From Vicinamibacterales bacterium (GTDB lineage Bacteria > Acidobacteriota > Vicinamibacteria > Vicinamibacterales > Fen-181): DNA of 60,323 nt. Position 1 is the first letter of the stretch. Every line of letters begins with the position of its first letter. Below are positions 168 to 60,323 of the stretch, in pieces. The translations under genes and the position numbers were made by a program. Under the pieces are notes generated by a model. It searched no databases. It worked only from the letters and a program-made list of their open reading frames with translations, and was not told the DNA's origin. The stretch is taken from positions 1-60,323 of the forward strand of contig DASXVO010000083.1 in NCBI GenBank assembly GCA_036504215.1. The letters run 5' to 3'.

Positions 168-3100
168 TTTCTGAGCCGCCTACGCGGCAGTGAACTCCCG
201 AGAGGCGTTGCCCGACGCCATAGAGCATTTCTGAACTGCCTACGCGGCAGTGAACAGACGCGGCTACTCGAACGCTTCATCGCCGAATTTCTGAGCTGCC
301 TACGCGGCAGTGAACAAGTGGCTCACCAAAACCTACGACCTCGTTGTTTTCTGAGCTGCCTACGCGGCAGTGAACGTGTGGCGGGCGTGAGGAAGTGATG
401 TAGACCGATTTCTGAGCTGCCTACGCGGCAGTGAACGCGGCGCTCCTCCCGGGTCACGCGGACCGAGATTTCTGAGCTGCCTACGCGGCAGTGAACTCGG
501 CAGGCGCGCGGGAATCCCTTGCTCGCATTTTCTGAGCTGCCTACGCGGCAGTGAACCTGGCCCCGTGGCATCTCGGCAAAGGCCGTGCTTTCTGAGCTGC
601 CTACGCGGCAGTGAACTGAGCTTCTGCTCGCGTGGCTCGCCAGACTCATTTCTGAGCTGCCTACGCGGCAGTGAACACCCTACACAAGGGCGTGATGCGG
701 CATCCGAATTTCTGAGCTGCCTACGCGGCAGTGAACGATCTGTTTCGCTCGTCTTCGCACGTGCCAGCTTTCTGAGCTGCCTACGCGGCAGTGAACTCCG
801 TCCCCCCGTGGCTGCTCACGATGCCCTTTTTCTGAGCTGCCTACGCGGCAGTGAACGCCATGATTACGCCTCGCTCTCTGTCGTCTCATTTCTGAGCTGC
901 CTACGCGGCAGTGAACCCACGATGGACGCCACGATCGCGCGACTCGTCTTTCTGAGCTGCCTACGCGGCAGTGAACCGCGCTGCTGCCGTTGTCGCGGCG
1001 GGCCGTGTTTTCTGAGCTGCCTACGCGACAGTGAACTTTGATTGGCCGATTGAGCACAGCGACCGCACTTTCTGAGCTGCCTACGCGGCAGTGAACCCAT
1101 GTCGTCAGCGTGAGGCTCGTCGGCACGATTTCTGAGCTGCCTACGCGGCAGTGAACGATCACGTCCACCTCGGAGACGCCCGCCTGATTTTCTGAGCTGC
1201 CTACGCGGCAGTGAACGGGATCGCTCATACGACCTTCACCGGCTCGGTTTTCTGAGCTGCCTACGCGGCAGTGAACGCATCACACGCCTCGTCAACTGCG
1301 CTTCATTTTTTCTGAGCTGCCTACGCGGCAGTGAACCCCCACCCCTACAGACGCGCTGTGTCCGGTGTTTTCTGAGCTGCCTACGCGGCAGTGAACGGGG
1401 TGAGAACAGCGCGACGGACGCGGCCGATTTTCTGAGCTGCCTACGCGGCAGTGAACGAGGGGGACGAGGACGACCCGCCGCACCCTGATTTCTGAGCTGC
1501 CTACGCGGCAGTGAACGGTGGCACCTGACCATCCTCCCGGTAGCCCTTTTTCTGAGCTGCCTACGCGGCAGTGAACACGAGCGCGTACACGGACGGCCAA
1601 GGCCTGATTTTCTGAGCTGCCTACGCGGCAGTGAACTTTCGCGCGTTGCTCGACGCGGTCATGCAAGCTTTCTGAGCTGCCTACGCGGCAGTGAACGAAT
1701 CTAGCACGGGCACGTAGTGGCGACGCGTTTTCTGAGCTGCCTACGCGGCAGTGAACGGGATCTGCTTCAATGACGCGGATGGGCTGCTTTTCTGAGCTGC
1801 CTACGCGGCAGTGAACTTGTCGCTCGTGACGACGGCGCGGAGCTTGCCTTTCTGAGCTGCCTACGCGGCAGTGAACTAGCTGCGCTTTGACCAGCGTTCC
1901 TGCCACTCTTTCTGAGCTGCCTACGCGGCAGTGAACGTTGTCATCGCAAGAAGATGGGTACCCCATTATTTCTGAGCTGCCTACGCGGCAGTGAACTGGA
2001 GGGCAGCAGAGCCCACCTGGCGCCACCTTTTCTGAGCTGCCTACGCGGCAGTGAACCTGATGGGCACGGGGGAGCGCGTCGTGCGTGTTTTCTGAGCTGC
2101 CTACGCGGCAGTGAACGCGCGATTCGTGCGGATGGTCGAGGCGTTTTCTTTCTGAGCTGCCTACGCGGCAGTGAACACGGTGCGTTGTCGTCCGCTGAAG
2201 GCCTCGCTTTTCTGAGCTGCCTACGCGGCAGTGAACGCCAGTTCGGCGATGGCATCCGCCATCAGCGCTTTCTGAGCTGCCTACGCGGCAGTGAACGGCC
2301 GTCTCTCCGGCCTGCCACGCCTGGTCACTTTCTGAGCTGCCTACGCGGCAGTGAACGGAGGCTGGCCGGGCCGGGGCCGAAAAGAGATTTTCTGAGCTGC
2401 CTACGCGGCAGTGAACGGCATGCCAGGGCTGCGGCGTTTGCGCCGATCTTTCTGAGCTGCCTACGCGGCAGTGAACCGGGTCGTCGACGCCTACGCCCAC
2501 CAGGCGCATTTCTGAGCTGCCTACGCGGCAGTGAACCCGGCGCGCACGCTGGCCGAGGAAGTGCTGCGTTTCTGAGCTGCCTACGCGGCAGTGAACTTCT
2601 ACGGGTTCGTCGAGTAGCAGATACCACGTTTCTGAGCTGCCTACGCGGCAGTGAACGAAGTAGTAGTCCGAGCATGGTGTCCCTCTCTTTTCTGAGCTGC
2701 CTACGCGGCAGTGAACGATAGAAGGGGTGAACGCCGACCTCCTGAAGCTTTCTGAGCTGCCTACGCGGCAGTGAACGTGGTGGGCCTGGGCCGATGAACT
2801 CAGGGTGATTTCTGAGCTGCCTACGCGGCAGTGAACGGGTCGGTTGTGGCACTGCATGCGGTGCCGATTTTCTGAGCTGCCTACGCGGCAGTGAACCACC
2901 TTGGCCTTGGCGTGCATCGCCGTGGTGTTTTCTGAGCTGCCTACGCGGCAGTGAACTGGTCTGGGCAGGCTGGAGTAGGACACGCGGATTTCTGAGCTGC
3001 CTACGCGGCAGTGAACGTAGGTGGCCGTCACCGACCGCCGCAGCTGCCTTTTCTGAGCTGCCTACGCGGCAGTGAACCTCGGGGTCGAGGGTGACTACGG

Positions 3101-4398
3101 TATCGCGCATTTCTGAGCTGCCTACGCGGCAGTGAACGATCGTCCGACGTACTCCCGGCCATCGTGCAATTTCTGAGCTGCCTACGCGGCAGTGAACTAT
3201 TGTTGTGACATCGCTCAGACTCCCTAACATTTCTGAGCTGCCTACGCGGCAGTGAACGCGCACCGGCCTCGCCGAACTTCGGATGGTCATTTCTGAGCTG
3301 CCTACGCGGCAGTGAACGTTGGGAGCACGTCAGCGTGCACGCGTTCCAGTTTCTGAGCTGCCTACGCGGCAGTGAACGGTTCCGGATACTCATGTACGTT
3401 CCGCGAAAATTTCTGAGCTGCCTACGCGGCAGTGAACGTTTTGCGTGATCTTGGCACCGGACATCGTGATTTCTGAGCTGCCTACGCGGCAGTGAACACG
3501 GGCGGATCGTTCGTCCGCTGCAACTCGCTTTTCTGAGCTGCCTACGCGGCAGTGAACTGGTCCGTTCGGGGCACCCCCTGGCACACAGATTTCTGAGCTG
3601 CCTACGCGGCAGTGAACCTTGCCGCTGGCCAGGTGGGGCCTATGTCGATTTTCTGAGCTGCCTACGCGGCAGTGAACTCGTTCAATCGGCGGAAGTTCCG
3701 GTCCGCGCTTTTCTGAGCTGCCTACGCGGCAGTGAACGATGGCGTCAGGGCAGAGTCCCGAGGCGTCCATTTCTGAGCTGCCTACGCGGCAGTGAACACG
3801 GTCGCGATCGCCAACATCAACGGCGCATTTTTCTGAGCTGCCTACGCGGCAGTGAAGTCCCCTGCCGCGACGTCCTCCGTGAGCGTCGTTTTCTGAGCTG
3901 CCTACGCGGCAGTGAACGCCTGGGGACGATCCTGGTTCGGCGCGACGGATTTCTGAGCTGCCTACGCGGCAGTGAACATGGCTTGTGGTCGCGGACTATC
4001 GGTTCGGTGGTTTCTGAGCTGCCTACGCGGCAGTGAACGTGACCACGTTGACGCCGCTCGGCGGCATAAATTTCTGAGCTGCCTACGCGGCAGTGAACGA
4101 CAAGGTCGGCCTTCGCCTGGTCGGCGTCGTTTTCTGAGCTGCCTACGCGGCAGTGAACTCCAGACACGACCCCTCGCCTAGTCGCCACTATTTCTGAGCT
4201 GCCTACGCGGCAGTGAACATCGGCAGGGCTCGGCGGATCAGCGCCTCCAATTTCTGAGCTGCCTACGCGGCAGTGAACCGTCCGACGCGTGCCCGGCGGC
4301 CGCGGCTCATTTTCTGAGCTGCCTACGCGGCAGTGAACATCCGCACCGCCCGGCGAGGCGAACATCGTTCTTTCTGAGCTGCCTACGCGGCAGTGAAC
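168..4398 (-). CRISPR. Type I-F CRISPR array, 71 repeats and 70 spacers
   Basis: A 28-bp repeat recurs with a 60-bp period (32-nt spacers). In the transcribed (minus) orientation it begins GTTCAC, has the I-F stem CTGCC/GGCAG around a GCGTA loop, and ends AGAAA. By counting there are 71 repeats: starts at 168, 228, 288, 348; 44 from 409 to 2989; 16 from 3050 to 3950; 7 from 4011 to 4371. Three spacers are 33 nt (376-408, 3017-3049, 3978-4010). Deviating repeats are 168-195 and 228-255 (one mismatch each), 1009-1036 (G to A on the plus strand) and 3830-3857 (last base). The two left-end deviants mark the old trailer end. The newest spacers should therefore be at the right, next to the leader and cas6f. 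I saw no repeated spacer and could not search for targets. Confidence 0.98.
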
Positions 4399-18099: not shown

Positions 18100-18232
18100 G
18101 CGGAAACGCAGGACAACAGAAGAGGTGACAGGCGCCTTGGTCCCGGACAGCCGGACCTGGGGCCTGTCACCTTTTTTCGTTTCGGAGGAGGATGGTGGGC
18201 ACTACTGGATTCGAACCAGTGACCTCCTGCGT
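18096..18232. repeat. Right copy of the 137-bp island-flanking direct repeat
   Basis: Identical to 1-137. It runs from the TAG of the truncated host gene, through a terminator, into the intact tRNA-Val as far as the base after the anticodon. Because the tRNA is on the minus strand, its 3' end faces the island, as expected when integration occurs in the 3' half of a tRNA gene. Confidence 0.9.
18123..18177 (+). terminator. Hairpin terminator, right copy
   Basis: An 11-bp perfect stem (AGGTGACAGGC/GCCTGTCACCT) followed by a T run, just after the truncated host gene. It also lies downstream of tRNA-Val on the other strand, where the T tract is weaker. Confidence 0.75.
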
Positions 18233-18268
18233 GTGAAGCAGGCGATCTAACCGCTGATCTAAGTGCCC
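18193..18268 (-). tRNA. tRNA-Val (anticodon CAC)
   Basis: A 76-nt cloverleaf including encoded CCA. The acceptor stem GGGCACT pairs with AGTGCCC. The anticodon stem CCTGC/GCAGG encloses the loop TTCACAC (anticodon CAC). The T arm contains GGTTCGAATCC. It reads GUG valine codons. It serves as the integration target of the flanking island, whose repeat covers A37 to CCA. Confidence 0.97.
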
Positions 18269-29331: not shown

Positions 29332-29405
29332 TGGAGCGGGCTACGGGGATCGAACCCGTCTAACTGGCTTGGGAAGCCAGAGCATTACCACTATGCTAAG
29401 CCCGC
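29332..29405 (-). tRNA. tRNA-Gly (anticodon CCC)
   Basis: A 74-nt cloverleaf with encoded CCA. The acceptor stem GCGGGCT pairs with AGCCCGC. The anticodon stem CTGGC/GCCAG holds the loop TTCCCAA (anticodon CCC). The T arm is GGGTTCGATCCCC. It reads GGG codons. Confidence 0.96.
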
Positions 29406-51333: not shown

Positions 51334-51363
51334 TTGACGTCCGGACGCTTGGTTTGATACCCT
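51334..51363 (+). promoter_or_regulatory. Promoter of the aro-trp operon
   Basis: TTGACG (51334-51339) and TACCCT (51358-51363), spaced by 18 bp, place transcription start about 90 bp before the leader peptide. A run of alternating GC lies just upstream (about 51315-51328). No operator is recognisable. Confidence 0.5.
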
Positions 51364-51463
51364 CTGGGCGACGTTGGCTCGAATAGATCGCATGCACGCA
51401 CCAGCATTCTCCCGCCCGGTTGGCTTCTCGCGTTCCGCACGCGCCGTTGCGGTACGGGTGTCG

Positions 51464-51523
51464 ATGCTGTCGTATCGTGGCTGGTGGTGGTATTCCATCA
51501 TTGAAGGGGCGTCCGTGTCCTAG
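51464..51523 (+). CDS. trpL: trp operon leader peptide (19 aa, three consecutive Trp codons)
   Basis: A short ORF, ATG at 51464 to TAG at 51521, with TGG TGG TGG at 51482-51490 followed by Tyr. It is placed 66 bp before aroDE and just upstream of an antiterminator/terminator pair. When charged tRNA-Trp is scarce, a ribosome stalled on these codons would leave 51501-51510 free. When Trp is plentiful it would reach the stop and cover that segment. An in-frame GTG at 51458 is an alternative start. Too short for ordinary gene calling but arranged exactly as in classical attenuators. Confidence 0.88.
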   Translation: MLSYRGWWWYSIIEGASVS

Positions 51524-51559
51524 CCACTGCAGCTTGCGACCTTTGAGAAGCCTCTTCAG
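51501..51559 (+). promoter_or_regulatory. Antiterminator pairing of the trp attenuator
   Basis: TTGAAGGGGC (51501-51510) can pair along all ten bases, with two G-U wobbles, with GCCTCTTCAG (51550-51559). The latter is most of the 5' arm of the terminator stem, so the two structures exclude each other. The first arm begins 11 nt after the last Trp codon, suitable for control by ribosome position. Confidence 0.75.
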
Positions 51560-51585
51560 CCTGAACGGTTGGAGAGGCTTTTTGT
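51548..51585 (+). terminator. Intrinsic terminator of the trp attenuator
   Basis: AAGCCTCTTCAGCC (51548-51561) pairs with GGTTGGAGAGGCTT (51567-51580) over 14 bp, with two wobbles and a 5-nt loop (TGAAC), followed by a T run. It ends only a few bases before the aroDE start codon, and its 3' arm contains the likely aroDE ribosome site GGAGAGG, so folding would also hide that site. Confidence 0.85.
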
Positions 51586-51589
51586 GTTT

Positions 51590-53062
51590 ATGAGCACTCC
51601 ACAGCTTTGTGTGACGGTGACCGGCTCGACCACGGCCGAGTTGCGCGCGAGACGAAATGCCGCGGCACAGGTGGCGGACCTCGTGGAGCTTCGTCTCGAC
51701 GGCGTGCGGGACGCCGATGTGAGCGGGGCTCTCGAAGGTCGAACGGTGCCGGTGCTCGTCACCTGCCGCCCCGTCCGCGAGGGGGGCGCGTTCGACGGCG
51801 CTGAAGAGGAGCGACTCGGCCTGCTTCGTCAGGCTCAGCAACAGGGCGCGGAGTACGTCGACGTCGAGTTCCAGGCCGATCACCGCGAGTTCGTGGCGGC
51901 GAGGGACGGCCGCGGCGTGGTGTTGTCAATGCACGATTTCGCCGGCGTGCCGCGCGGTCTGGCGGGGCTCTATCGAGCGATGCGAGCGACTGGAGCCGAG
52001 GTCGTGAAGCTCGCCGTGACGGCCAGATCGCTCTGCGACAACCTGCCGCTCGTGGAACTCGGGCGGGATACGAACGACGGCGTGAAGGCCGCGTTGGTGG
52101 CGATGGGCACGCCGGGATGGCCGAGCCGGATCCTGGCGCCGCACTTCGGATCGTGCTGGAGTTACGCGGGCGAGGGGGTCGCGCCGGGGCAGATGGCTCC
52201 CGGACGCCTGCTGTCCGAGTTCCGGTTTCGAGCCATCACACCTCGCACCCGCGTGTTCGCGATCGTCGGACGCCCGATCGCACATTCGGTGTCCCCGGCG
52301 ATGCACAACGCCGCGTTCGAGGCGACCGGGATCGACGCCGTCTTCGTGCCGCTCGAAGCGAGTTCGGCGGACGACTTCGAGCGGTTCGCGCGGGCGATTG
52401 GTGTGGCGGGAGCGAGCGTGACGGTGCCCTTCAAGGTGGATCTGATGTCCTGTGCCGCCGAGGTGGACACGGTGAGCCTTCAGACCGGCGCCCTGAACAC
52501 GCTCAAGGCCGATGGGTTGCGGTGGGTGGGTCGCAACGCCGATGTGTCGGGGTTCCTCGCGCCGCTCGTTGCGTCGGGTATCCGGCTCGGTGAGACGCGG
52601 GTGTCGATCCTCGGCGCCGGCGGCGCCGCACGCGCGGCTGTCCGGGCGCTGGCGGATGCCGGGGCGCGCGTGACCGTGTGGGGCCGTACGCGCGAACACG
52701 TCGAGCGAGTCGCAGCGCTGGCCGTCGGGACGACGGGACGGCTCGGTCTGCCGGAGCCAAGCGAGTGGGACCTTCTTGTCAATGCGACACCGATCGGCAT
52801 GCATCCCAACGTGACACAGACGCCGCTCGCTGCATCGCGGCTGGCCCGCGGCCGGGTCGTGTACGACCTCGTCTACAACCCGGCTGAGACGCGGCTGCTC
52901 CGAGAGGCAGCCGCCGCGGGCTGCCGGACAATCGGCGGTCTCGAGATGCTCGTTTCGCAGGCGTGCGTGCAGTTCGAATGGTGGACCGGCGTGGCGGCGC
53001 CACGCCACGTGATGCAGGCGGCCGCAGTGGCGCGCCTGAACCAGATGGCAGGTATCGCATGA
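51590..53062 (+). CDS. aroDE: Bifunctional 3-dehydroquinate dehydratase / shikimate dehydrogenase (AroD-AroE fusion)
   Basis: 490 residues. Residues 1 to about 215 are type I dehydroquinase: VELRLDGVRD, the catalytic histidine in VLSMHDFAG and the Schiff-base lysine in VVKLAVTA. From about 220 the shikimate dehydrogenase follows: VGRPIAHSVSPAMHNAAFE, ASVTVPFKVDLM with the catalytic lysine, LGAGGAARAAVRAL for NADPH and LLVNATPIGMHPN. The fusion channels dehydroquinate through dehydroshikimate to shikimate, as in plants and a few bacteria. First gene after the attenuator; its stop overlaps the trpE start. Confidence 0.94.
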   Translation: MSTPQLCVTVTGSTTAELRARRNAAAQVADLVELRLDGVRDADVSGALEGRTVPVLVTCRPVREGGAFDGAEEERLGLLRQAQQQGAEYVDVEFQADHREFVAARDGRGVVLSMHDFAGVPRGLAGLYRAMRATGAEVVKLAVTARSLCDNLPLVELGRDTNDGVKAALVAMGTPGWPSRILAPHFGSCWSYAGEGVAPGQMAPGRLLSEFRFRAITPRTRVFAIVGRPIAHSVSPAMHNAAFEATGIDAVFVPLEASSADDFERFARAIGVAGASVTVPFKVDLMSCAAEVDTVSLQTGALNTLKADGLRWVGRNADVSGFLAPLVASGIRLGETRVSILGAGGAARAAVRALADAGARVTVWGRTREHVERVAALAVGTTGRLGLPEPSEWDLLVNATPIGMHPNVTQTPLAASRLARGRVVYDLVYNPAETRLLREAAAAGCRTIGGLEMLVSQACVQFEWWTGVAAPRHVMQAAAVARLNQMAGIA

Positions 53063-54537
53063 AGATGACGACGTTCTCCGAGTTTGCCGAACTGGCGCGT
53101 CAGGGCACGTTCGTGCCGGTCTGCAAGGAGCTGATCGCGGACCTGCTGACGCCGGTCTCGGCGTTCCTGGCGATCGCGGAGCATTCCGACTATGCCTTCC
53201 TGCTCGAGAGCGTCGAAGGTGGTGAGCACGTTGGCCGCTACTCCTTTCTCGGGAAGGATCCGTTCCTCGTTCTTCGGGCGAACGCCGACGGCCGACCGAC
53301 AATCGAGCGGGCCGGGGTGACGACAACGCCGGACGAGGCGTTCGTTCCCACGTTGCGCCGCTTGATGGCCGACTTCCGGTCACCGGTCGTGCCGGGGCTC
53401 CCACGGTTCACGGGCGGTGCGGTGGGCTTCCTCGGGTACGACTCGGCGGCGTGGTTCGAGCCGGTACCGCTGGCGCCGGCCAGCGGACGCGATGAGAGCG
53501 ATCCGGCCGCGGGATTCATGGTGTTCGACACGGTGCTGGCCTTCGACCACGTGCGGCATCGCATTCTGCTCATCGCCAACGCGAGGATCGTGCCGGGCGA
53601 CGACCTCGAGGCGCTCTACCAGTTCGCCTGCGCGAAGATTACCTTCCTCGAGCGCGAGTTGCAGGGCAATCTGTCGCGGGTGATAAAGACCGAGCCGCGG
53701 CCGCTGAGCGTGCGGTCGAACATGTCTCGCGAGCGGTTCGAGGCGGCGGTGCGCGCCGGGCAGGAACACATTGCGGCCGGCGACATCTATCAGGTCGTGC
53801 TGTCGCAGCGTTTCGACGCGCAGGTGGATGTGGCACCGTTCACAGTCTACCGGGCGTTGCGGCACGTCAACCCGTCGCCGTACATGTTCTTCATCCGGAT
53901 GGGCGGACGCTCCATCATCGGGTCGTCACCGGAGATGCTGGTGCGGGTGGAGGGCGACTGCGTCGAGACGCATCCAATCGCCGGGACGCGGCCACGCGGG
54001 AGCGACGAGGCGGAGGACGTGCGCCTGGCCGAGGAACTGAAGGCGAGCGAGAAGGAACGAGCCGAGCACGTCATGCTCGTGGATCTGGGGCGGAACGACG
54101 TGGGGCGCGTGTCGGCGTACGGGTCCGTTCGCGTGCCGCAATTCATGGGACTCGAGCGCTATTCGCACGTCATGCACCTGGTCTCGGTGGTCGAAGGACG
54201 GTTGGCGCCCGAGTGCGATCGTCTCGATGCGCTCGTTTCGTGCTTTCCGGCTGGCACCGTCTCCGGTGCGCCGAAGATCAGGGCGATGGAGATCATCAGC
54301 GAGCTCGAACCCGATCGGCGGGGGATCTATGCGGGCGCGGTGGGCTACGTCGACTTCGCCGGCAACCTCGATTTCTGCATCGCAATCCGGACCATTGTGA
54401 TGTCGGGTTCCTCCGCACGCGTCCAGGCCGGTGCGGGCATCGTCATGGATTCGGATCCGTCGGCGGAGTACGAGGAGACGTGCGACAAGGCGAAAGCTCT
54501 GATGCAGGCCCTCGAACTGGCGGCCGCGGGTTTGTGA
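53059..54537 (+). CDS. trpE: Anthranilate synthase component I
   Basis: Converts chorismate to anthranilate with ammonia supplied by TrpG. 492 residues from ATG at 53059 (overlapping the aroDE TGA). The feedback-inhibition motif LLES is present in FLLESVEGGEHVGRYSFLG. The catalytic chorismate-binding half includes DIYQVVLSQRF, NPSPYMFF, GSSPEMLVR, HPIAGTRPRG and PAGTVSGAPKIRAMEII. Intact LLES suggests direct inhibition by tryptophan in addition to attenuation. Confidence 0.97.
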   Translation: MKMTTFSEFAELARQGTFVPVCKELIADLLTPVSAFLAIAEHSDYAFLLESVEGGEHVGRYSFLGKDPFLVLRANADGRPTIERAGVTTTPDEAFVPTLRRLMADFRSPVVPGLPRFTGGAVGFLGYDSAAWFEPVPLAPASGRDESDPAAGFMVFDTVLAFDHVRHRILLIANARIVPGDDLEALYQFACAKITFLERELQGNLSRVIKTEPRPLSVRSNMSRERFEAAVRAGQEHIAAGDIYQVVLSQRFDAQVDVAPFTVYRALRHVNPSPYMFFIRMGGRSIIGSSPEMLVRVEGDCVETHPIAGTRPRGSDEAEDVRLAEELKASEKERAEHVMLVDLGRNDVGRVSAYGSVRVPQFMGLERYSHVMHLVSVVEGRLAPECDRLDALVSCFPAGTVSGAPKIRAMEIISELEPDRRGIYAGAVGYVDFAGNLDFCIAIRTIVMSGSSARVQAGAGIVMDSDPSAEYEETCDKAKALMQALELAAAGL

Positions 54538-54547
54538 GGCCACGAGC

Positions 54548-55141
<594 letters not shown>

Positions 55142-55145
55142 CCAC

Positions 55146-56168
55146 ATGTTCAAGACCTGTCTCGAGAGACTCGTGCGCCGCGAAGACCTGACCGCCGACG
55201 AGGCTGCTGGGGCCATGAACGAGATCATGGACGGTGCGGCGAGTGAGGCGACGGTTGCGGCCTTGCTCATGGGCCTGGCCATGAAGGGCGAACGGCCCGA
55301 GGAAATCGTGGGGTTCGCGCGTGCGATGCGCGACCGTGCGGTCCCGGTTCCGGGGACGCACGAAGATGCCATCGACCTGTGCGGGACGGGTGGCGATCAG
55401 GCCGGGACGTTCAACATCTCTTCGGTGGCGTCGATTGTGGTCGCGGCCTGCGGTGTAAAGGTGGCCAAGCACGGCAATCGATCGGTTTCGAGTCGGTGCG
55501 GAAGCGCCGATCTGTTCGAGGCCCTCGGCGTCGCGGCCGCCATGTCGCCTGAACTCGTCGATCGAATGCTGAACGAGATCGGCATCGCGTTTCTCTTCGC
55601 GCCGGTGTTCCATCCATCGATGCGCCACGCGGCTTCGGTGCGGCGCGCCTTGGGTGTCCGAACCGCCTTCAACCTGCTGGGCCCGCTCACCAACCCGACG
55701 CGGCCGCGTCGTCAGATCGTGGGTGTGCCGCGGCCGGAGTTGACCGAGCTCATGGCCAGGTCGCTGATGCTCCTCGGTTCGGAGCGCGCCTGGGTCGTTC
55801 ACGGGGCGGATGGTCTCGACGAGATCTCGACCACGGGGTACACCAAGGTGTCCGAGTGCCGCAACGCGGCAGTCATCACCTTCTACCTCCATCCGGCCGA
55901 TGTCGGACTTCCGCGCGCTTCCGCCAGGGCACTGATCGGTGGCGATGCGGGTGTCAATGCCGGCATCGCCCGCGCGATCCTGGCAGGAGAACGGGGCCCC
56001 GCACGCGACGTGGTGCTCATCAACGCTGGTGCCGCGCTCTTCGTGGCGGGAGCGAGCGCTTCGATGAGCGCCGGGATCGACCGGGCCGCAGGGGCGATCG
56101 ACTGCGGCGACGCGGCACGTTGTCTCGCGAGAATGGCCGCGCTGTCATCAGGAGGCGTGGCGCGATGA
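55146..56168 (+). CDS. trpD: Anthranilate phosphoribosyltransferase
   Basis: Adds the phosphoribosyl group of PRPP to anthranilate. 340 residues from ATG at 55146; PRPP motif DLCGTGGDQAGTFNISS, KHGNRSVSSRCGSADLFEALG, HPSMRHAASVRRALGVRTAFNLLGPLTNP. Its stop overlaps the trpC start by 4 bp. Full-length and unfused. Confidence 0.97.
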   Translation: MFKTCLERLVRREDLTADEAAGAMNEIMDGAASEATVAALLMGLAMKGERPEEIVGFARAMRDRAVPVPGTHEDAIDLCGTGGDQAGTFNISSVASIVVAACGVKVAKHGNRSVSSRCGSADLFEALGVAAAMSPELVDRMLNEIGIAFLFAPVFHPSMRHAASVRRALGVRTAFNLLGPLTNPTRPRRQIVGVPRPELTELMARSLMLLGSERAWVVHGADGLDEISTTGYTKVSECRNAAVITFYLHPADVGLPRASARALIGGDAGVNAGIARAILAGERGPARDVVLINAGAALFVAGASASMSAGIDRAAGAIDCGDAARCLARMAALSSGGVAR

Positions 56169-56986
56169 CGCGAGATGTTCCGGACTTGCTCCTGGCCATC
56201 CTGGCGGCGACGCGCCGGAGTCTGGAGATTCGGCGGGATCGCATCCCGATGGCTGTCGTCGAGGCGGCGTCCGACCGATGCGCGCCTCGGGGAGGTGAGT
56301 TCACGGCGGCACTGTCGCGGATCGGCACATGGAACGTCATCGCCGAGTGCAAGCGACGTTCGCCCAGCCGGGGCGTTCTGCGCGATCCATTCGACCCCGC
56401 GGCCATCGCCGAGGCGTATGCTGCGGCCGGCGCGGCAGCGATCTCGGTCCTGACCGAGCCGATGTTCTTCGACGGCTCGCTCGATCACCTTGCGGCCGTC
56501 CGCGCGCGGGTCGCCACGCCGGTCCTGCGGAAGGACTTCATGATCGACGAGTACCAACTCGTCGAAGCCCGTGCCGCTGGCGCCGATGCGGTGCTGCTCA
56601 TCGTGGCAGCGATCGATCAGTCGCGGCTCGCGCAGTTGGTGGCGCGAGCCTCGTCGCTCGGGTTGTCGGCCCTCGTCGAGGTGCACGACGGCCATGACTT
56701 GGCGCTGGCGCTCGACGCCGGCGCAAGAATCGTGGGCGTCAACAATCGGGATCTCCGGACGCTGGCCGTCGACCTCCGGACGTCGGAGAGCCTGGTGGAT
56801 CGGATCCCTGACGATGTGCTGGCGATAGCGGAGAGCGGGCTTCGACGTCATGAGGACCTGGAACGGCTGCGCGCAGCCGGGTTCGACGCGTTTCTCATTG
56901 GGGAGCAATTGATGACGGCCTCGGCGCCGGGCGAGGCGCTGCGCGCGCTGCTCTCGGAGCCTTCACGGAGCGAGGCATGCACGTAA
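56165..56986 (+). CDS. trpC: Indole-3-glycerol-phosphate synthase
   Basis: 273 residues from ATG at 56165. Catalytic residues sit in [13 protein letters not shown] (lysine), [25 protein letters not shown] (lysine) and [11 protein letters not shown]. The long frame upstream belongs to another phase of trpD and is not coding. Overlaps trpFB by 10 bp. Confidence 0.97.
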
Positions 56987-58815
56987 AGGTCTGCGGCATC
57001 ACGCGGGCGGAAGACGCGATCGCCGCGGTGGACGGCGGGGCATCTGCGGTCGGGTTCGTGTTCTGGCCGGCAAGTCCCCGCTACATCGATCCGGCCCGGG
57101 CCCGGGCGATCGTCTCGAGACTGCCGCCATTTGTCTCGGCTGTCGGCGTGTTCGTGGACATGCCGCGGACGGACGCCGAGGAAATCGTTCGACACGTGGG
57201 CCTGAGCGCGGTGCAGCTCCATGGTCATGAAACCCCGGACGCCTGTCGGGACTGGCCGTGCCGTGTCATCAAGGCGGTGCTCGCGACCGAACGGCAACTC
57301 GCATCGCTCGACGAGTGGCCGGAAGGCGTGTTGCTCCTCGTTGACGCGCTCGATCCCGAACGGCGGGGCGGAACGGGCCAGACGGTCGATTGGCACGTCG
57401 CGGCCCGGATGGCGGCACGCCGACGGATCGTGCTCGCTGGCGGCCTGGCGCCGGCGAACGTCGCGGAGGCGATCGCCAACGTTCGTCCCTTCGCCGTGGA
57501 CGTGTCGTCGGGCGTCGAGACCGGGCCCGGCCTGAAGGACCATGGGCGCCTGCGGGCGTTCCTCGCCGCGGCGCGGGCCACAGGGGGCGGGCCGGCTCCG
57601 GCGACGCTCCCTCTGTTCGGACGCCGTGATCCGGATGCGCGCGGGTACTACGGGCGGTTTGGTGGCCGCTTCGTTCCGGAGACGCTCATGGCACCCGTCG
57701 AAGAACTCGAGGACGCCTACCGCGGTGCCCGCCGCGATCCGGCTTTTCTCGCGCGCCTGACGGGGCTCTTTCAGCACTATGTCGGGCGGCCCACGCCGGT
57801 CACCGAGGCCTTCCGGCTTTCCCAGGCGGCGGGCGGCGCGCGGGTGTTTCTCAAGCGCGAGGACCTGACCCACACGGGTGCGCACAAGATCAACAACGCG
57901 CTCGGGCAGGCCCTGCTCGCGCAACGGATGGGAAAGACGCGCGTCATCGCGGAGACGGGCGCCGGCCAGCATGGCGTGGCGGCCGCGACGGCCTGCGCGC
58001 TGCTCGGCCTGCGGTGCGAGGTCTACATGGGTGCCGAGGACATGGCCCGGCAAGCGCCCAACGTCGCGCGGATGGAACTGCTCGGGGCCCGTGTCCTCCG
58101 CGTGGACAACGGGTCGCGCACGCTCAAAGACGCCATCAACGAGGCGATGCGCGATTGGGTCGCGAATGTGCACGAGACCTACTACCTGCTGGGCTCCGTG
58201 CTGGGCCCCCATCCCTACCCGCTGATGGTCAGAGAGTTCCAGGCGGTCATCGGCCACGAGGCCCGCGCCCAAATGCTCGATCAGACCGGCTGCCTGCCCG
58301 ATGCGGTGGTTGCGTGCGTTGGCGGCGGCAGCAACGCCATCGGTATCTTCGATGCGTTTCTGGATGACACGAGTGTGCGCCTCATCGGCGTCGAGGCGGG
58401 CGGCCGGTCCCTGACACCGGGTCAGCACGCCGCCCGGTTTGCCGCGGGCAGCGAGGGCGTGCTGCAGGGCACCCGCACGTTCGTGTTGCAGGATGCCGAC
58501 GGCAACATCGAGGCGACGCATTCGGTGTCGGCAGGCATGGACTACGCGGCGGTCGGGCCGGAGCACGCGTCGCTCCGCGAGGCGTCTCGCACCGAGTACA
58601 CGCTGGCAAGCGATGAGGAGGCCCGTCGCGCGTTTCGTGACCTCGCGCGGCTGGAAGGCATCCTGCCGGCTCTCGAGTCCGCACACGCGGTGGCCGCTGC
58701 CGTTCGTCTCGCGCCGGCGTTCGGCAACGCCGGGATTGTGCTCGTCAATCTGTCGGGACGCGGCGACAAGGACCTGGCGACGATGATGGGGAGCGGGAGC
58801 GATGTCGCGTCTTGA
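56977..58815 (+). CDS. trpFB: Phosphoribosylanthranilate isomerase / tryptophan synthase beta fusion (TrpF-TrpB)
   Basis: 612 residues, two enzymes in one chain. TrpF is about 1-205, with [12 protein letters not shown] (general-base cysteine), VQLHGHE and [15 protein letters not shown] (acid aspartate). A short Gly/Ala/Pro linker leads to TrpB from about 210: [35 protein letters not shown] with the PLP lysine, [12 protein letters not shown], and GGGSNAIG for the PLP phosphate. Fusing steps 3 and 5 while TrpC (step 4) stays separate is an uncommon layout. Overlaps trpA by 14 bp. Confidence 0.96.
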
Positions 58816-59602
58816 AGGGTGCTTCGCCGGACTGCGCCGTGAACGCCGAACCGGCCTGATTACCTACGTCACGGCGGGTGACCCGGATTTCGCCAGGTCC
58901 GCGGCTATCGTGCGTACACTCGACCGTGCGGGCGCGGACGTCATCGAGCTGGGGGTCCCGTTCTCCGACCCGGTCGCCGACGGTCCGGTCATTGAACGGG
59001 CGTCCGAGCGGGCCCGTGCGTCCGGCGGGACCCTGGACACGACGCTCGAACTCGTGCGCGTGGTCCGCGACGAGATTCGTGCACCGGTCGTTCTGTTCAC
59101 CTACGCGAACCCCGTCCTTCGGATGGGTGAACAGGAGTTTGTGACCCGCGCGGCCGCGGTAGGCGTGGACGGCGTCCTGGTGCTCGATCTGCCGCTCGAG
59201 GAGGCTGCGGGGTTTTGCGACAGCCTGGCGCGCGTTGGCCTCGACATGATCTTCCTGCTGAGCCCGACGACGACCGATGCGCGGATCGAACGGGCCGCGG
59301 CGCTCGGGCGCGGGTTCCTGTATGCGATCTCGCGATTGGGCGTCACCGGTGCGCGCGATACGCTGGCAGAAAGCGCGGGCCCCCTCGTTCAACGGATACG
59401 GAACTGCACGACGTTGCCGATTGCCCTCGGCTTCGGAATCTCGAAGCCGGACCACGTCCGCCAGGTTGGGCAGTGGGCCGATGCGGCCGTTGTCGGAAGC
59501 GGCCTGGTACAGCTCGTGGCAGACGCGGCAGCGACGCCCGACCTGATGGAGCGCGTCGCGTCGTACGTGCGCTGGATGAAAGGAAGCGAGGCCCCGTGCT
59601 GA
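58802..59602 (+). CDS. trpA: Tryptophan synthase alpha subunit
   Basis: Cleaves indole-glycerol phosphate to indole, delivered to TrpB through the inter-subunit tunnel. 266 residues with [11 protein letters not shown], the catalytic glutamate and aspartate in [19 protein letters not shown], and the phosphate-binding [12 protein letters not shown]. Overlaps trpFB by 14 bp and aroF by 7 bp. Confidence 0.97.
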
Positions 59603-60323
59603 TCGTCATGAAGGAGAGCGCAACCGACGGCCAGGTGGAGAAGGTCGCAGCCGAACTCCAGACAATGGGGTTCGACGTGCACCGGTCCGCGGGCGCAGCG
59701 CGCGTGATTCTCGGGGCCGTGGGCGGTGACGAGAGCGTCGAACTCGCGCTGCTCGAGATGATGGACGGCGTCGGCGAGGTCGTTCGAACGCGCGAGCCAT
59801 ACAAGCTGGCGAGCCGCAGCTTCAGGCCGGAAGGGACGGTCGTGACGATCGGCGACGTCCGGATCGGGGGTGACGAGGTGGTCGTCATGGCAGGCCCGTG
59901 CTCCGTCGAGTCCGAACCGCAGATGCGGGCCGCGGCTGCTGCGGTCAGGCGCGCGGGAGCCAAGGTCCTTCGCGGCGGCGCCTTCAAGCCGCGCAGCTCA
60001 CCGTACAGCTTCCAGGGCCTCGGCGAGGAAGGGTTGCGCCTCTTGCGGTGGGCGGCCGACGAGCACAACCTCAAGGTCATCTCCGAGGTGATGGATGTCT
60101 CGCAGGTCGCGTTGATGGCGGGGTATGTCGACATTCTGCAGGTCGGCGCGCGCAACATGCAGAACTTCACGCTGCTCAGGGAACTGGGCAGGCTCCGCCA
60201 GCCGGTGTTGTTGAAGCGCGGCATCTCGGCGACGATCGAGGAGTGGCTGCTGTCCGCGGAATACGTGCTGGCGGGTGGAAACGACGACCTGATCCTGTGC
60301 GAGCGCGGGATCCGCACGTTCGA
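59596..60323 (+). CDS. aroF: 3-deoxy-7-phosphoheptulonate (DAHP) synthase, type I-beta, 3' end outside the window
   Basis: First enzyme of the shikimate pathway. Starts at GTG 59596 ([17 protein letters not shown], the usual N terminus of this type); 242 codons are visible. An N-terminal ferredoxin-like/ACT-like regulatory domain (about 1-70) precedes the barrel: VVVMAGPCSVESEPQM, LRGGAFKPRSSPYSFQGLGEEGL, VISEVMDVSQVALM, ILQVGARNMQNFTLL, VLLKRGISATIEEWL and NDDLILCERGIRTF. It brings early and late aromatic steps under one attenuated transcript. Truncated only by the window edge. Confidence 0.96.
   Translation, partial: MLIVMKESATDGQVEKVAAELQTMGFDVHRSAGAARVILGAVGGDESVELALLEMMDGVGEVVRTREPYKLASRSFRPEGTVVTIGDVRIGGDEVVVMAGPCSVESEPQMRAAAAAVRRAGAKVLRGGAFKPRSSPYSFQGLGEEGLRLLRWAADEHNLKVISEVMDVSQVALMAGYVDILQVGARNMQNFTLLRELGRLRQPVLLKRGISATIEEWLLSAEYVLAGGNDDLILCERGIRTF

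Follow-up and report, generated by a model that had tools for sequence, protein, structure and literature searches.

A conserved Trp/Tyr-codon leader and putative ribosome-mediated attenuator upstream of the aroDE-trp-aroF operon in Vicinamibacterales

Genes and leader elements of the locus

The window analysed here, a stretch of 60,323 nucleotides, is one whole contig (C83) of the 5.9-Mb genome of a Vicinamibacterales bacterium. It carries aroDE, the trp genes and aroF in a row, preceded by a leader region; the features are summarized in Table 1. The order aroDE-trpE-G-D-C-F-B-A-aroF is kept in nearly all relatives' loci long enough to show it, and in one of them (L042) aroF was not found adjoining trpA. 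The operon had been described as beginning with aroDE and ending with aroF. Its first gene is confirmed; its last is not, as the next gene in 50 of 50 relatives' loci is a tyrA in the same orientation as aroF. The operon would comprise the ten genes aroDE-trpEGDC-trpFB-trpA-aroF-tyrA, of which we infer tyrA for the window's own genome, the contig ending in aroF. We also note that trpF and trpB are fused in the window and adjoin each other in the surveyed relatives. Most genomes of the order have no close DAHP synthase besides the aroF of the operon, and the window's genome has three, the two additional homologues (59% and 51% identical) being located at G000:C79:19883-20512 and G000:C70:157404-157904. 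Elsewhere in the window, the minus strand holds a CRISPR array of ~71 repeats (168-4398), which matches Rfam CRISPR-DR4, and two tRNA genes (18196-18268 and 29335-29405).

Table 1. Features of the aroDE-trp-aroF locus and its leader region in the window
Feature	Position	Strand	Evidence or remark
Sigma-70-like promoter, TTGACG - 18 nt - TACCCT	51334..51363	+	found by comparison of loci
Leader peptide ORF, probable full length 43 codons, MHAPAFSRPVGFSRSARAVAVRVSMLSYRGWWWYSIIEGASVS and stop	51392..51523	+	in-frame start at matching position in 4/4 congeners
19-codon leader version, as first annotated	51464..51523	+	its ATG not kept in congeners
Control codons Trp-Trp-Trp-Tyr	51482..51493	+	W-run in 50/53 loci, Tyr enriched there
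Strand 2, antiterminator 5' arm, TTGAAGGGGC	51501..51510	+	pairs with 51550-51559; covariation
Strand 3, common to antiterminator and terminator, GCCTCTTCAG	51550..51559	+	covariation of both helices
Intrinsic terminator hairpin, strands 3:4, T run 51579-51583 (T5)	51544..51584	+	covarying stem; fold -26.8 kcal/mol
GGAGAGG, possible aroDE ribosome site inside strand 4	51571..51577	+	12 nt before ATG 51590
aroDE, 3-dehydroquinate dehydratase / shikimate dehydrogenase	51590..53062	+	NCBIfam TIGR00507, TIGR01093; Pfam PF01487, PF08501
trpE	53059..54537	+	TIGR00564
trpG	54548..55141	+	TIGR00566
trpD	55146..56168	+	TIGR01245
trpC	56165..56986	+	NF001377
trpF-trpB fusion	56977..58815	+	NF010376; PF00697 + PF00291
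trpA	58802..59602	+	TIGR00262
aroF, DAHP synthase, cut by contig end at 60323	59608..60323	+	NF006421

The leader was initially delimited as 19 residues, from ATG 51464 to TAG 51521-51523, which read MLSYRGWWWYSIIEGASVS and contain TGG TGG TGG at 51482-51490. The Trp codons are placed as described; the start and the length have probably to be revised. ATG 51464 is replaced by TCG or GGG in all four congeners, in which GTG 51458 is kept, and counterparts of a start at 51392 lie ~28-36 nt past a conserved -10 box in each of the four. Because this upstream start and the promoter are conserved and ATG 51464 is absent in the congeners, the leader probably starts at ATG 51392 and has 43 codons, the 19-residue frame being only its end. 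No clear ribosome site was found before 51392. The promoter was recognized solely by comparing loci, as a TTGACR - 17/18 nt - TAnnnT element that 47 of 53 Vicinamibacterales loci carry 5' of the leader, and a generic scan of the window scored no promoter. In order loci with the element, the in-frame leader start is usually 8-40 nt past the -10 box; leaders in the order are ~33-45 codons long. A start only 8-10 nt past the box (L032, L038, L040, L041 and L049-L051) suggests that the leader mRNA is leaderless or nearly so in several genomes.

Two helices compete for strand 3. The strand 2 : strand 3 helix comprises 10 bp, two G-U pairs among them, and the terminator, AAGCCTCTTCAGCC-TGAAC-GGTTGGAGAGGCTT, occupies 51548-51580 with a stem that is extendable to 51544-51584 (14-18 bp). 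Since 51550-51559 sits inside the terminator arm, the two structures are mutually exclusive. The 10-bp antiterminator, the 14-bp terminator with its T run and their mutual exclusion are thus all found where the first-pass annotation had placed them. Folding of the 129-nt leader region, which had been suggested as a check, gave -54 kcal/mol compared with -38.8 ± 3.7 in shuffles (z = -4.1). RNA from 51500 with the polymerase just past strand 3 adopts the antiterminator fold (-21.0 kcal/mol), and RNA from 51534 on, which mimics a ribosome at the stop codon, adopts the terminator fold (-26.8 kcal/mol). The terminator is the stronger of the two in the window, and the switch must therefore act during transcription; mean energies across genomes are comparable, at -26.7 kcal/mol for the antiterminator and -23.9 kcal/mol for the terminator. 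Pairing of strand 1 with strand 2 as a protector hairpin, namely GTGGCT with AGCCAC and GGGGC with GTCCT, was seen in the window fold.

Conservation, covariation and mode of action

The DNA 5' of aroDE was read in 53 loci of the order Vicinamibacterales (Acidobacteriota). In 50 of them, aroDE is preceded by a Trp-cluster leader built in this way, which excludes chance. The terminator core is nearly constant across loci, consisting of GCCTCTTCAGCC...GGTTGAAGAGGC followed by a T run. A covariance model built from 35 sequences was searched in a sample of 396 Acidobacteriota genomes and matched 42 of the 42 sampled from the order, 11 of which lie outside the model-building set; the four of these 11 that were read have W-run leaders directly 5' of aroDE. 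Several weak matches outside the order (L169, L176, L177, L179, L181, L183, L184) proved to be plain terminators without a W-run and were discarded. Among the order loci, L008 has no leader, and trpE was not found in its short flank. A single Trp is kept in L010 and L019, where the terminator is retained and the Trp cluster is down to that one residue; these are possibly decaying or re-tuned attenuators.

Both helices covary. The terminator contains 31 double-change cells, compared with 8.2 in shuffles, with 9 of 14 pairs changed on both sides, and the antiterminator contains 14, compared with 5.4, over 5 of 10 pairs. Strand 2 folds with strand 3 in 44 of 44 genomes. Paired with its own strand 3 it scores 1026, as against 923 ± 16.5 when arms are swapped among the 44 genomes, a score reached in 0 of 5000 permutations (relatedness uncorrected), and compensating changes of the arm and strand 2 are clear in L021, L032, L047, L049, L050 and L051. 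The antiterminator arm is read in another frame in L025 and lies at or past the stop codon in L026-L028; its persistence despite these shifts indicates that RNA, not peptide, is conserved there. With Trp codons and pairing conserved over ~14 families, the comparison of relatives that the first-pass annotation had called for comes out in its favour.

The spacing of these elements is constrained as well. The distance from the last Trp, Tyr or Phe codon to strand 2 is 8.7 ± 2.6 nt; when the residues after the last Trp were shuffled the standard deviation was 4.1, and 0 of 5000 shuffles were as tight. The end of the stop codon lies ~10-17 nt past strand 2 in most genomes (16 nt in many). The control codons are positioned such that stalling would free strand 2, and the stop codon such that a ribosome reaching it would cover strand 2.

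We consider it very likely that a ribosome-mediated transcription attenuator couples the aroDE-trpEGDC-trpFB-trpA-aroF-tyrA operon to charged tRNA-Trp and, probably, to charged tRNA-Tyr. Transcription would start just past the -10 box, and a ribosome would begin the 43-codon leader. With ample charged tRNA, the ribosome would reach the stop codon and cover strand 2, and strands 3 and 4 would form the terminator. When Trp (or Tyr) is scarce, the ribosome would stall on the Trp and Tyr codons, leaving strand 2 free to pair with strand 3, and RNA polymerase would read through into the whole operon. We infer the stalling, the response to each amino acid and the start codon. The classical ribosome-mediated attenuator proposed earlier in front of an aro/trp supra-operon thus agrees with the leader codons and pairing conserved in relatives.

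An ordinary intergenic terminator accompanied by a chance W-rich frame, with no regulation at all, has a negligible probability, as it is contradicted by the order-wide conservation and covariation of two mutually exclusive helices. Moreover, nothing 5' on the plus strand needs terminating, because the large upstream frame is on the minus strand. Sensing by an arrest peptide of the TnaC type, or by another ligand-sensing RNA such as an unknown riboswitch, instead of codon-level stalling, is also very improbable. The length of the leader and the conserved acidic residues after the aromatic run would be compatible with an arrest peptide; against it, families differ freely in which aromatic residues they have and in what order (WWWY, WYWYW, WFWFIYF, WWWFFYF), and the Glu-rich tail is the antiterminator arm, kept in the other frame of L025 and at or past the stop codon of L026-L028. 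As for a ligand-sensing RNA, no Rfam family matches: searches of the window and of the leader alone returned neither Trp_leader (RF00513) nor another attenuator, at the gathering threshold or at E up to 5. Three other sensors were sought in the genomes of 60 relatives, with positive controls detected. The T-box riboswitch (RF00230) was found in 0 of 60, the TRAP protein (PF02081; B. subtilis as control) in 0 of 60, and TrpR in none of the 60.

The position of the terminator bears on a further proposal, that its arm covers the aroDE ribosome site. The terminator ends ≤13 nt from the aroDE start in 14 loci, the window and 13 others, and in the window the sole SD-like sequence there is in strand 4. 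The hairpin may therefore hide the ribosome site in the window's genus as a secondary effect, and such sequestration could occur in no more than a minority of genomes, 14 loci at most; the proposal holds as a possibility for these loci and fails as a general rule. That hiding of GGAGAGG, with control of aroDE translation and not of termination, is the main output of the leader appears improbable, since the hairpin is located further upstream in most genomes, still with a T run and covariation, and the window's 12-nt spacing between SD and ATG is long.

Amino acids sensed by the leader

The control region was defined as the ten codons before strand 2. Trp makes up 28.6% of control codons (126/440), a figure that partly reflects selection, because the ORFs were picked for Trp. 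Tyr makes up 12.3%, versus 1.7% across the remaining leader codons (p = 7e-15, relatedness uncorrected); 11 of 13 families show this enrichment (sign test p = 0.02), with both TAT and TAC in use. Phe displays no overall enrichment in the control codons. Where the Trp codons sit further off, Tyr or Phe codons occupy the space between, which holds the final aromatic codon at ~9 nt from strand 2. The control region contains codons of more than one amino acid, a Trp run and Tyr, and these match the products of an operon that includes tyrA.

Given tyrA in the operon, together with the Tyr enrichment and the codon spacing, the simplest interpretation of the leader is that it senses Tyr in addition to Trp, which we regard as moderately probable. 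The alternative is that the leader senses tRNA-Trp alone, in the manner of E. coli trpL, its Tyr (and Phe) codons being incidental or retained for RNA pairing, for instance that of strand 1. We hold this possible, without regarding it as probable. It would account for the dominance of Trp among the control codons, for the lack of overall Phe enrichment and for family f5, which has no Tyr among its 10 control codons. The aroR leader of C. glutamicum provides a precedent, since it contains Phe-Tyr-Phe and responds to Phe and not to Tyr (PMC11802643). A Trp-only leader does not readily explain the Tyr enrichment in most families through both synonymous codons, the role of Tyr and Phe codons in holding the spacing to strand 2 where Trp lies further away, or the presence of tyrA in the operon. 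Two further lines of reasoning were set aside. A link between a degenerate tyrA and the missing Tyr codons of family f5 was dropped, the tyrA frame of G010 being intact and the sample amounting to three genomes, and the argument that Tyr is sensed because there is just one DAHP synthase was left unused in view of the three in the window's genome.

The term "tryptophan attenuator" used in the first-pass annotation is too narrow, because of the Tyr codons in the control region and tyrA in the operon. Should the Tyr codons be functional, one RNA would adjust the common pathway along with Trp and Tyr.

Related leaders and comparison with known systems

A sister family within the class has thiF, a hisZ-like gene, hisG, hisD and a class I aminotransferase (hisC-like), in this order, downstream of aroDE, as seen in the two genomes whose downstream genes were read (L174 and L175). 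In three genomes of that family (L174/L227, L175/L229 and L226), the leaders 5' of aroDE read VRRWRATVHHHRYHA, RRWRPVFRHHRYHP and VRRWRPIFHRYHRT, each ending in a stop codon. They are rich in His (HHHRYH, HHRYH and HRYH) and are followed by a CCTCTTCAGGGAA...CCTGAAGAGG-type terminator similar to that of the order. Judging from these sequences, the leader codons changed with the pathway, Trp/Tyr preceding the trp operon and His the his operon. The pairing of a His-rich leader with a his operon that begins with aroDE constitutes a natural test that codons, not the peptide, carry the signal. In other Acidobacteriota, a Trp leader precedes trpE-G-D-C-F-B-A in L166 and aroDE-trpE in L172 and L173, and a Trp-run leader with a terminator precedes a TrpB-like (TrpB2) gene in L167, L168, L170 and L182. 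In L168, a DAHP synthase-like gene follows the TrpB-like gene.

To a broader proposal we give even weight for and against. It holds that supply through the entire aromatic pathway is set by a divalent Trp/Tyr attenuator, in an order where the searches for TrpR, TRAP and T-box came back empty, and that the leader codons of the attenuator family were re-coded with the operon, Trp/Tyr before aroDE-trp-aroF-tyrA and His before aroDE-his.

No description of a leader of such kind in Acidobacteria was found in the open-access literature. A 2010 survey noted that, before its own find in Firmicutes, no leader-peptide attenuator was known outside Proteobacteria and Actinobacteria, and that the attenuators predicted in Acidobacteria were almost all without assigned function (PMC2965389). 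The putative attenuator described here can be assigned to a named operon and is kept throughout an order of soil acidobacteria; further Trp leaders occur elsewhere in the Acidobacteriota.

The mechanism of E. coli trpL, including the control region and the stop-codon step, has been described (PMC1183508). The present leader resembles trpL (Rfam RF00513 type) in its tandem Trp codons, exclusive 2:3 and 3:4 helices and a stop codon covering strand 2. It differs in being about three times longer, in the added Tyr codons, in having no sequence match to any Rfam family, in the inclusion of aroDE, aroF and tyrA in the operon, and in that no TrpR was found in the group. In ilvGMEDA of Salmonella and E. 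coli, one leader reads several amino acids made by the operon (multivalent attenuation); the present leader would be multivalent likewise, for aromatic instead of branched-chain amino acids.

The Trp leaders described in the Actinobacteria Corynebacterium and Streptomyces are alike in their double or triple Trp codons, terminator and comparative evidence, and differ in that they carry Trp only and precede trp or trpS genes only (PMC1262725). In C. glutamicum, the aroR Phe-Tyr-Phe leader attenuates the DAHP synthase gene aroF in response to Phe (Neshat et al. 2014, as cited in PMC11802643). The two systems share attenuation of a DAHP synthase gene through aromatic leader codons; in C. glutamicum the trp operon is attenuated separately by trpL, whereas here one Trp + Tyr leader precedes trp, tyr and common-pathway genes. 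The trp operon of B. subtilis lies inside an aro supra-operon that includes tyrA, and attenuated tyrA supra-operons have been predicted in other phyla (PMC1173090). In view of these predictions, of B. subtilis and of aroR-aroF, the earlier statement that classical attenuators do not control shikimate supply was too strong. The B. subtilis arrangement resembles the present one in having its trp genes surrounded by aro and tyrA genes. Trp is sensed there by the RNA-binding protein TRAP and not by a leader peptide, in contrast to the 60 relatives searched here, from which TRAP is absent. The mechanism is textbook; the novelty lies in the bacterial group, in an operon of this size and in the combination of Trp with Tyr codons.
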